Positions 29,319 to 31,078 of a DNA stretch of 64,000 nucleotides are shown piece by piece (the stretch's first letter is position 1; every line of letters begins with the position of its first letter). The position numbers were made by a program, and so were the translations under genes. Source of the stretch: Pseudomonas asgharzadehiana (GTDB taxonomy: Bacteria > Pseudomonadota > Gammaproteobacteria > Pseudomonadales > Pseudomonadaceae); NCBI RefSeq assembly GCF_019139815.1, contig NZ_CP077079.1, forward strand, positions 4,898,001 to 4,962,000, written 5' to 3'. Under the pieces are notes generated by a model. That model had not been told where the DNA came from, searched no databases, and was given only the letters and a program-made list of their open reading frames with translations.

Positions 29319-30347
29319 ATGACCTCCAAGAACGATAAAAATACGCGCACCACGGGTCGCCCGACCCTTAACGAAGTCGCCCGCCTGGCCGGCGTCAGCC
29401 CGATTACCGCTTCCCGCGCCTTGCGTGGCATCAGCACCGTGGCCGTTGAGCTGGTCGAAAAAGTGCAGCACGCCGCCGCCGAACTCAACTACGTGGTCAA
29501 CCCCGCCGCCCGCGCCCTGGCCTCGGCCCAGAGCCATTCGGTGGTGGTATTGGTGCCGTCGTTGTCCAACCTGCTGTTCATCGAAACCCTCGAAGCCATT
29601 CACCAGGTGCTGCGGCCCAAGGGCTTCGAAGTGCTGATCGGCAACTCCCACTATTCGCGCGATGAAGAAGAAAACCTGCTGCGCAACTACATGGCCTACC
29701 AGCCTCGGGGTTTGCTGCTGACGGGGTTCGATCGCACCGAAAGCGCCCGACGGATGGTCGAGGCCAGTAACGTGCCCTGCGTATACATGATGGACCTGGA
29801 CCCGAATGCGGGCGTGAACTGCGTGGGCTTCTCGCAACTGGCCGCGGGCGAAACAGCGGCGGCGCATTTATTGTCCCGTGGGCGCAAACGCCTGGCCTAT
29901 ATCGGCGCCCAGTTGGACCAACGCACCCTGCTGCGCGGCGAAGGGTTCCGCCGGGCATTGCAACAGGCGGGCAAGTACGACCCGGCGTTGGAACTGCTCA
30001 CGCCGCGCCCGTCTTCCGTGGGGCTGGGCGGTGAGTTGTTTTTGCAACTGCTGGCCGCGCATCCGGATGTGGATGCGGTCTTCTTCGGCAACGACGACCT
30101 GGCCCATGGCGCCCTGCTGGAAGCGATGCGCCATGGTATTAAAGTGCCGGAGCGCGTGGCGGTGCTGGGCTTCAACGACTTGCCCGCGTCGGCGTTCATG
30201 GTGCCGCGCTTGAGCAGCATCAGCACGCCACGGGAAGCCATTGGCCGGCGCGCGGCGGAACATTTGTTGACGATCATGGCGGGTAACAAGATCGCCAAAC
30301 CGGTGGTGGATATGGGGTTTGAGTTGCAGGTACGGGAAAGCACGTAA
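29319..30347 (+). CDS. gntR: LacI-family gluconate utilisation repressor
   Basis: This 342-residue LacI-family repressor has the HTH and hinge at residues 12-65 (PTLNEVARLAGVSPITASRA, then LRGISTVAVELVEKVQ and ALASAQS). The sugar-binding-protein-like core reads VVVLVPSLSNLLFIETLEAI and VFFGNDDLAHGAL, with LSSISTPREAIGRRA at the end. The TTG at 29304 is a possible earlier start; I prefer the ATG at 29319. It is divergent from gntK-gntP. The three AGCGCT palindromes are its probable operators, and gluconate or 6-phosphogluconate is the likely inducer. Confidence 0.92.
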   Translation: MTSKNDKNTRTTGRPTLNEVARLAGVSPITASRALRGISTVAVELVEKVQHAAAELNYVVNPAARALASAQSHSVVVLVPSLSNLLFIETLEAIHQVLRPKGFEVLIGNSHYSRDEEENLLRNYMAYQPRGLLLTGFDRTESARRMVEASNVPCVYMMDLDPNAGVNCVGFSQLAAGETAAAHLLSRGRKRLAYIGAQLDQRTLLRGEGFRRALQQAGKYDPALELLTPRPSSVGLGGELFLQLLAAHPDVDAVFFGNDDLAHGALLEAMRHGIKVPERVAVLGFNDLPASAFMVPRLSSISTPREAIGRRAAEHLLTIMAGNKIAKPVVDMGFELQVREST

Positions 30348-30419
30348 GACGCCTGTAAGACGGGGCTGACATCGCGGTAAGCCCCTTGCCCGGTTGCCTA
30401 CGCTTACGTCAGAATCCGC

Positions 30420-30640
30420 CGGCTTGTGTGCCTGGGAGGTGGTCTTTAAGGTTGGCCGGTCGCTGAATTTTTCGGTGATCGGGTTTAGTAGCCCGACTAT
30501 TGGTCACTCTTAGTGCATGAGCCTTTTCTGTTTTATGGCGGCTGTGCGTAGGGCATCTTCGGGTGCGCCGGCTTTGAGTGTCCACCGGTCTACTAACCTG
30601 CGTACAGCTGCCACCCTCGTTGAGTAGCGATGAGGTATCA
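30420..30640 (+). ncRNA. Candidate structured RNA leader with three-way junction
   Basis: In a 314-bp gap without a long gene, the + strand can fold into a strong multi-stem RNA. P1 pairs 30537-30552 with 30597-30612 (16 bp, three of them G-U wobbles). Inside, GCAUC (30553-30557) pairs with GGUGC around a UUCG loop, and GCCGG (30567-30571) pairs with CCGGU (30585-30589). CGGGUU/AGCCCG forms a hairpin just upstream (about 30480-30495), and CUCGUU/GAUGAG another just downstream. The element ends shortly before the small ORF at 30662. From memory, closely similar sequences precede DUF3077/DUF6124 genes in other pseudomonads. The function is unknown. Confidence 0.6.
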
Positions 30641-30661
30641 GCCACATCAGGTACGTCAACA

Positions 30662-30892
30662 ATGCAAAGCATCCCCACGCATACGCTCTTCACTGTCACT
30701 CCTGGTTCCTCCACCGAAACCCTGCTGATCAACAGCTACGAAACCGTGTCTGCCGTGAGCACCTTGTTGCTCGACCTGTCCAATGACCTCAGTGGTAAAC
30801 AGCGTGATGTGGCATTGGCCATTCATCAACTGAGCGAGCTGTCCGTCTTGCTGGTGGGCAAAGCCATGGACCAACATACTCCGCGCTGTTAA
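30662..30892 (+). CDS. Small DUF3077/DUF6124-like protein
   Basis: This 76-residue protein has the core LFTVTPGSSTETLLINSYE with TVSAVSTLLLDLSNDLSGKQ and RDVALAIHQLSELSVLLVGKAM. I recognise it as the helical motif of small Pseudomonas DUF3077/DUF6124 proteins, which are multicopy and of unknown function. Members are often longer (about 90-120 residues), so the N-terminus may be truncated. An earlier in-frame GTG at 30578 lies inside the leader's stem region and has no ribosome site. A truncated REPIN follows. Confidence 0.6.
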   Translation: MQSIPTHTLFTVTPGSSTETLLINSYETVSAVSTLLLDLSNDLSGKQRDVALAIHQLSELSVLLVGKAMDQHTPRC

Positions 30893-30907
30893 GACCTTTA
30901 CTCGGTC

Positions 30908-30994
30908 AAAATGTGGGAGGGGGCTTGCTCCCGATGACGGCGTGTCAGCCAAGTATTCATTAGCTGGACCACTGCTATCGGGAGCAAGCCCCCT
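30908..30994. repeat. REPIN with truncated right arm
   Basis: The left REP AAATGTGGGAGGGGGCTTGC is complete. The right copy reads GGGAGCAAGCCCCC and then breaks off to TTGTTTTAC, so the terminal TCCCACATTT is missing. The truncation shows loss of part of the outer stem after insertion. Confidence 0.85.
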
Positions 30995-31078
30995 TGTTTT
31001 ACCGTGCCCGCTTGGGCATCTCGCCGTAGCGTGCAGGCCCTGCTAGATTGTCTCCCTCTCCACTGCCAGGGAATCACC

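Follow-up and report, generated by a model that had tools for sequence, protein, structure and literature searches.

A C4 antisense RNA, a member of the known Rfam family RF01695, is encoded on the + strand at positions 30531..30618 of the window, the 64,000-nucleotide stretch of Pseudomonas asgharzadehiana DNA analysed here (77 bits, where the gathering score is 45, E 2.6e-13). The folded element in front of the small gene is thus a known antisense RNA, as in one of the options of the sequence-only reading, that of a small RNA. It very probably belongs to a complete P1/P7-type C4 antisense control cassette which has multiplied on the Pseudomonas chromosome, and of which the window copy has had its target exchanged, with repression of its own gene probably weakened or lost.

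The C4 element and the layout of its cassette

The closing stem of C4 comprises 17 bp (30536-30552 with 30597-30613), with a GG present at its start; its three G-U pairs had been recognised in the sequence-only reading, but its length had been given as 16 bp. Both of the inner hairpins described earlier are localised within this stem, the first (30553-30566) with a UUCG loop and the second (30567-30589) with a 13-nt loop. Compared with 100 dinucleotide shuffles, the fold of the 301-nt region 30400-30700 is better than every one of them (z -2.58).

Selection at the RNA level, previously argued from the G-U pairs, is strongly supported by the covariance analysis of aligned copies that had been proposed as a check. 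The alignment, which was sequence-based rather than fitted to the structure, comprised 37 C4 copies (36 distinct), namely all 12 from the own genome plus 25 taken from the 30 loci L013-L042, with five omitted as resembling others. For the 27 base pairs of the Rfam structure, pairing is intact in 98.8% of the cells, and 17 of these pairs show changes on both sides. Cells changed on both sides number 76 versus 15.7 in shuffles, a value reached in none of 500 shuffles, although kinship among the sequences alone can exceed such shuffles. None of the 500 shuffles reached any of the five covariation measures, and sliding the partners abolishes the signal. The long closing stem with two inner hairpins that characterises C4 is supported by covariation, except in the third helix (30567-30589), where variation is one-sided only and no pair is changed on both sides. 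When copies are compared, few parts vary as much as the terminal loop. The presence of a structured RNA 5' of a gene had also suggested a riboswitch-like leader, yet a ligand-binding riboswitch is barely credible here: the Rfam family is an antisense family, no riboswitch signal was found, and the copy-specific parts are antisense pairings, the variable terminal loop matching the leader and the start region. Both the assignment to this Rfam family and the way in which the copies vary led to its rejection.

The features of the cassette, with the loop types A and B as defined among the orthologs below, are as follows.

30424..30452, + strand: promoter-like sequence TTGTGT-17 nt-TAAGGT, read from the sequence
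30446..30499, + strand: leader with two hairpins, c4-a1b1 (RF03163) at a sub-threshold 36.1 bits in Rfam
30482..30491, + strand: leader linker-site, inside the hairpin 30480-30495 (-8.0 kcal/mol with the C4 linker)
30500..30514, + strand: leader loop-site (-12.8 kcal/mol with the C4 loop)
30531..30618, + strand: C4 antisense RNA (RF01695), from Rfam (77 bits) and covariation
30572..30584, + strand: C4 terminal loop CTTTGAGTGTCCA, 13 nt, antisense segment ("loop"), from alignment to the Rfam structure and copy comparison
30590..30596, + strand: C4 linker CTACTAA, second antisense segment ("linker"), 3' of the loop, from the same alignment and comparison
30619..30628, + strand: downstream linker-site pairing with the C4 linker, with one mismatch in the window copy
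30619..30690, + strand: approximate minimal type B tract inside a type A copy (62-63% identity to L357)
30648..30661, + strand: ribosome-binding region, the position of the start loop-site in type A orthologs, mismatched here (-6.5)
30662..30892, + strand: DUF6124 gene, 76 aa, predicted two-helix hairpin (Pfam E 6e-26; AlphaFold2)

Loop and linker are used as neutral names; the excerpts of PMC5320573 consulted describe P1 with b' on the ribosome-binding site and a' upstream, and in that scheme the C4 terminal loop corresponds to b'. Against c4-a1b1, a described C4 target leader, the leader does not reach the gathering score of 46.7 (E 1.6e-7, with 551 bases searched), and both antisense segments of the window C4 are complementary to targets in this leader, as is characteristic of C4. 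A strict sigma-70 scan of the window found no promoter. The pattern TTGnnn-17-TAnnnT occurs 5' of 71 of 125 C4 copies, beginning approximately 110-150 nt ahead of C4, versus a mean of 3.1 (maximum 9) in 200 shuffles. The cassette is flanked by genes named by resemblance as coding for a LacI-type regulator and a glutathione S-transferase (GST)-like protein. A REP-like palindrome (GTGGGAGGGGGCTTGCTCCCGATG and its inverse) is found 3' of the DUF6124 gene at 30906-31000, and comparable stretches also occur elsewhere in the own genome and in relatives.

This layout would be consistent with a single transcript, with a predicted start near 30459, running through a leader with two target sites, C4, two further target sites and the DUF6124 gene, where the second downstream target would normally cover the start region of the small gene. 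In phages P1 and P7, RNase P cuts C4 from the transcript and C4 blocks translation at its target (PMC5320573, PMC12197685, both in part); in P1 it controls ant (PMC12197685, in part). By analogy, C4 would be cut out of the Pseudomonas transcript, pair with the sites and block translation, with the processing, the repression and the direction of the effect all presumed to follow these phages. In the window copy the leader pairing would remain, while repression via the start region would be weak or lost.

Spread of C4 and the genes downstream of it

The sequence-only reading had pointed to near-identical sequences in other pseudomonads and proposed a genus-wide search, and such relatives were found in many genomes. 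With at most 27 candidates scored per genome, C4 was found in 138 of 149 genomes of the genus (E <= 1e-3, own genome included), 137 of them over the cut-off, with no match in 11. Twelve copies are encoded in the own genome, while eight chosen single-contig genomes contain 125 copies (42, 30, 15, 12, 10, 10, 3 and 3), 120 of which are over the cut-off. In an order-level set, 29 of 194 genomes contain C4, three of the genus and 26 others, the latter with one to six copies each, except one with 14. DUF6124 is found in two of these 194 genomes, both of the genus, and C4 was absent from all 14 control genomes.

Among the eight genomes, C4 is located no more than 800 nt upstream and on the same strand in 60 of 76 DUF6124 and 21 of 28 DUF3077 hits (E <= 1e-3; some genes are counted under both models), and a DUF6124 or DUF3077 gene is found downstream of 79 of the 125 C4 copies. 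Ten other proteins encoded 3' of C4 were compared with Pfam, of which two match Bro-N, one reaches DUF3077 and seven have no match; one of the Bro-N proteins matches anti-repressor Ant families in PHROGs. One own-genome copy (L012) has no DUF hit downstream and no start-region match, and is apparently decayed. The proteins of 60 aa or more that are encoded downstream of C4 were compared for an N-terminal tag of MxKxTPNPP type, which occurs in 49 of 58 DUF6124, eight of 19 DUF3077 and six of 43 other proteins, the latter six including a Bro-N protein and its near copy. The tag is common to different domain families, as if the start region moved with the cassette.

The window ORF 30662-30892 (+) matches Pfam DUF6124, so that of the earlier label of a DUF3077/DUF6124-like gene the second part stands; DUF3077 gave no match up to E 10 and none in NCBIfam. 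An AlphaFold2 model of the protein (pLDDT 88, pTM 0.67) predicts a two-helix hairpin, which is too generic to assign a function. The best match in a PDB sequence search reached only E 0.29, a viral fold search with the model gave no match at E <= 0.001, PADLOC gave no hit, and PHROGs yielded a weak match (E 0.006) to a PHROG of unknown function. In the phage and plasmid collections the window protein had no match at E 1e-3; C4 is, however, followed by a DUF6124 gene beside prtR in the phage record EU982300, indicating that this search missed distant members. DUF6124 genes lacking C4 are divergent from LexA/CI-type S24-peptidase repressors at four loci tested (L113, L117, L120 and L122). A role of DUF6124 in repressor-controlled or DNA-damage responses is hinted at, as a lead only.

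The Pseudomonas copies resemble the C4 of P1 and P7 (RF01695, RF03163) in their fold, in the leader targets before and the gene-start targets after C4, and in the two antisense segments. At least two of them precede a Bro-N gene, as C4 precedes ant in the phages. In contrast to P1/P7, they are chromosomal, number up to 42 per genome, mostly precede DUF6124/DUF3077 genes and carry copy-specific codes, the window copy being mismatched at the start region. The Group 1 sRNAs of Acinetobacter baumannii are likewise C4-type RNAs, present in several chromosomal copies, with a variable antisense loop, and are apparently processed from longer transcripts (PMC5320573, in part); while the excerpts of that paper assign no cis target gene to these, most Pseudomonas copies match the gene that directly follows them. 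An upstream and a downstream target on one transcript are likewise shared with the phage P4 CI RNA (seqA/seqC) and Gifsy-1 IsrK/STnc1160 (PMC4825925, in part). Termination by the Pseudomonas C4 would be hypothetical, and the isrK model (RF01394) scores only 23.7 bits in the window, under its gathering score of 50.

C4 and c4-a1b1 are listed in PMC2864571, and many C4-type RNAs in Acinetobacter as well as predictions in Pseudomonadales are noted in PMC5320573 (both in part). DUF3077 is mentioned with Pseudomonas in excerpts of a paper on furfural tolerance. The openly licensed literature yielded no paper on DUF6124, and nothing on C4 antisense RNA with prophage and Pseudomonas fluorescens. Although the RNA family has been described before, no account of the amplified DUF6124/DUF3077 cassettes was found in this openly licensed literature, and one may exist elsewhere.

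Copy-specific antisense codes

Pairing between C4 and its own targets was compared with pairing to the targets of siblings, the other copies of the same genome, for 114 copies from six genomes, each followed by an ORF of 60 aa or more. The loop pairs with its own start region at -11.56 kcal/mol versus -6.41 for siblings, a difference reached in none of 2000 permutations, and the own start region is the best or tied for best in 66 of the 114 copies, where approximately six are expected, leaving 48 for which the own target is not best. The linker similarly favours its own downstream site (-9.05 versus -5.37 kcal/mol; own best in 70/114). In the leader the averages are -10.98 versus -8.18 kcal/mol for the loop (own best in 38/114) and -9.46 versus -6.79 kcal/mol for the linker (39/114). 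Helices of at least 8 bp between loop and start region are formed in 68 of 120 own pairs versus 7.6% of foreign pairs; in 28 of the 120 copies, including that of the window, the helix is shorter than 7 bp, some start codons perhaps being misassigned. That pairing at the start region is specific to each copy speaks for translational control in the C4 cassette family, while the leader pairing leaves room for control at the leader. The specificity of the codes suggests that dozens of similar antisense RNAs with separate targets can coexist in one cell.

On an earlier measure, covering 140 nt downstream, the own target of the window copy ranks only approximately ninth among its 12 possible targets. 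A trans target for the window C4 among the 12 copies of its own genome was considered and rejected, the best site (-12.9) being located approximately 55 nt past a start codon rather than at a ribosome-binding site.

The C4 copies might alternatively act in trans as an immunity repertoire against phages with C4-controlled genes, which is one option proposed for Acinetobacter (PMC5320573, in part). C4-like patterns do occur in 72 stretches of viral contigs, and matches were found in four of 50,697 phage records. For 74 viral start regions (79 C4 hits less five dropped for want of a parsed loop or start), the loops of one genome (G017) cover 47, above all 20 shuffles (maximum 38). The other five of the six genomes did not exceed all 20 shuffles, however, the own-genome loops cover 19 of the 74 regions with at least 9 bp against a shuffled mean of 11.7 and up to 27, and most copies examined match their own target in cis, making such a repertoire very improbable. 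In the viral contigs with C4 (L242-L313), a family of small proteins of approximately 52 aa (MTALIPSKIRALAHRRMALAALHANSS...) is often encoded directly after C4.

Orthologs of the cassette and the mosaic copy in the window

Thirty loci encoding homologs of the GST were compared, of which 17 have the regulator nearby. Seven of these 17 contain the cassette, nine lack it, with about 43 bp between the regulator and GST genes at one cassette-free locus, and one (L336) contains a different unit. This unit of L336, also composed of C4 and DUF6124, occupies the same LacI-GST gap in reverse orientation. The 13 other loci were left out as they lack the regulator; at L339, among these, C4 is on the other strand. 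The suggestion that the element is mobile and carries a cargo gene fits in part: the copy number varies (up to 42 per genome, none in 11 of 149), and at one intergenic site some loci have the unit and others lack it, with a different unit found there in inverted orientation. A transposase or end repeats were not identified.

A genome scan for relatives of the DUF6124 gene found 106, of which 80 were kept. C4 is located upstream in 72 of the 80, and the eight without a detectable C4, all at this locus, retain the gene. These eight also retain the leader hairpin, in which the linker-site is present as such or as a variant, and because of this C4 was probably lost by deletion. Hairpins hiding the Shine-Dalgarno sequence were sought in these eight orthologs, with inconsistent folds. 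The reading of DUF6124 as a strong toxin is weakened by the same eight orthologs, which keep the gene without a detectable C4.

Two scans gave 29 orthologs with C4 (7 + 22), all of which differ, while four pairs share the loop and leader core. Loop type A is found in 12 of these orthologs plus the window, type B in ten, and four other types in six. Pairing of the loop with the leader ranges from -10.0 to -20.1 in all 29 orthologs, the window copy included. Downstream, the 12 other type A loops pair at -12.4 to -15.6 and the six loops of other types at -11.2 to -17.0. The ten type B loops reach -8.8 to -11.6, with the best match after the start codon in seven, across it in one and upstream in two. 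The downstream linker-site is altered in the window copy and in L354.

The window loop pairs with its own start region at only -6.5, the weakest of the 29 orthologs. On the window's downstream region this own loop is surpassed by loops of type B (-12.2), by two other types (-14.7 and -13.4) and by one variant type A loop (-10.0). Downstream complementarity is present on average in the family; in the window copy the loop pairing is -6.5 and the linker-site has a mismatch. Since the loop/start pairing is the weakest of the 29 and loops of other types fit better, C4 repression of the window's own DUF6124 gene is probably weakened or lost.

The origin of this mismatch was traced by comparison with L357 (P. 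lactucae), the type A ortholog that is closest by its GST protein (91.5%). The window is 98% identical to it in the leader targets, 98% in the 5' half of C4, 100% in the loop and 97% in the 3' half. Beyond C4 the identity falls to 63% up to the start codon and 62% over the first ten codons, and rises again to 88% in mid-gene and 97% at the gene's 3' end. The two segments that diverge from L357 are instead 88-93% and 79-100% identical to seven of the eight type B copies compared, the eighth (L368) showing 74% and 79%. A short recombination tract spanning approximately 30619-30690 or longer, through which the target would have been exchanged and the antisense kept, explains this pattern of identities.

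When loops were swapped between types, the own loop averaged -14.06 on leaders versus -10.06 for loops of other types, and -12.29 versus -8.81 on downstream regions. It beats every loop of another type on only five of the 29 leaders and on 17 of the 29 downstream regions; that it is so often beaten is due in part to two long, G-rich loop types with broad binding. On average, the comparison therefore supports a loop and targets that have changed together, more clearly so downstream than in the leader.

The pairing retained by all orthologs is that with the leader, and the window copy might act mainly there, with C4 pairing to nascent transcripts and causing early termination as negative feedback, while control at the start region is secondary. 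The phage P4 CI RNA, which pairs with upstream and downstream targets and terminates transcription, offers an analogy through seqA (PMC4825925, in part), and the presence of the leader pairing in all 29 orthologs, where that of the loop with the start region varies from -6.5 to -17.0, agrees with it. Terminator-like stems between leader and C4 were observed in 13 of 125 copies and, among 30 high-scoring copies, in 14, both counted without a shuffle control. No terminator-like site was found in the window at 30340-31010, however, nor in 112 of the 125 copies; preference for the own target over those of siblings is stronger at the start region than in the leader; and the swap control, with the own loop best on so few leaders, weakens this alternative further. 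It is considered rather unlikely, and a translational control cassette with an exchanged target is preferred for the window copy.

A more far-reaching scenario, put forward here as speculative and on balance doubtful, is that Pseudomonas has made a phage immunity switch into a family of antisense-gene cassettes on its chromosomes, each with a code of its own, which evolve through the swapping of parts. Codes would be re-matched by joint change of loop and target, short tracts would exchange the target without the antisense, and some lineages would drop C4, each step altering the control of DUF6124/DUF3077; in mismatched copies, the pairing of loop and leader might serve as transcriptional feedback. 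The identification of the C4 cassettes connects many small and so far unexplained genes of one major genus of bacteria with a defined RNA switch, and a single locus offers natural mismatch and deletion variants with which the effect of each pairing may be tested.
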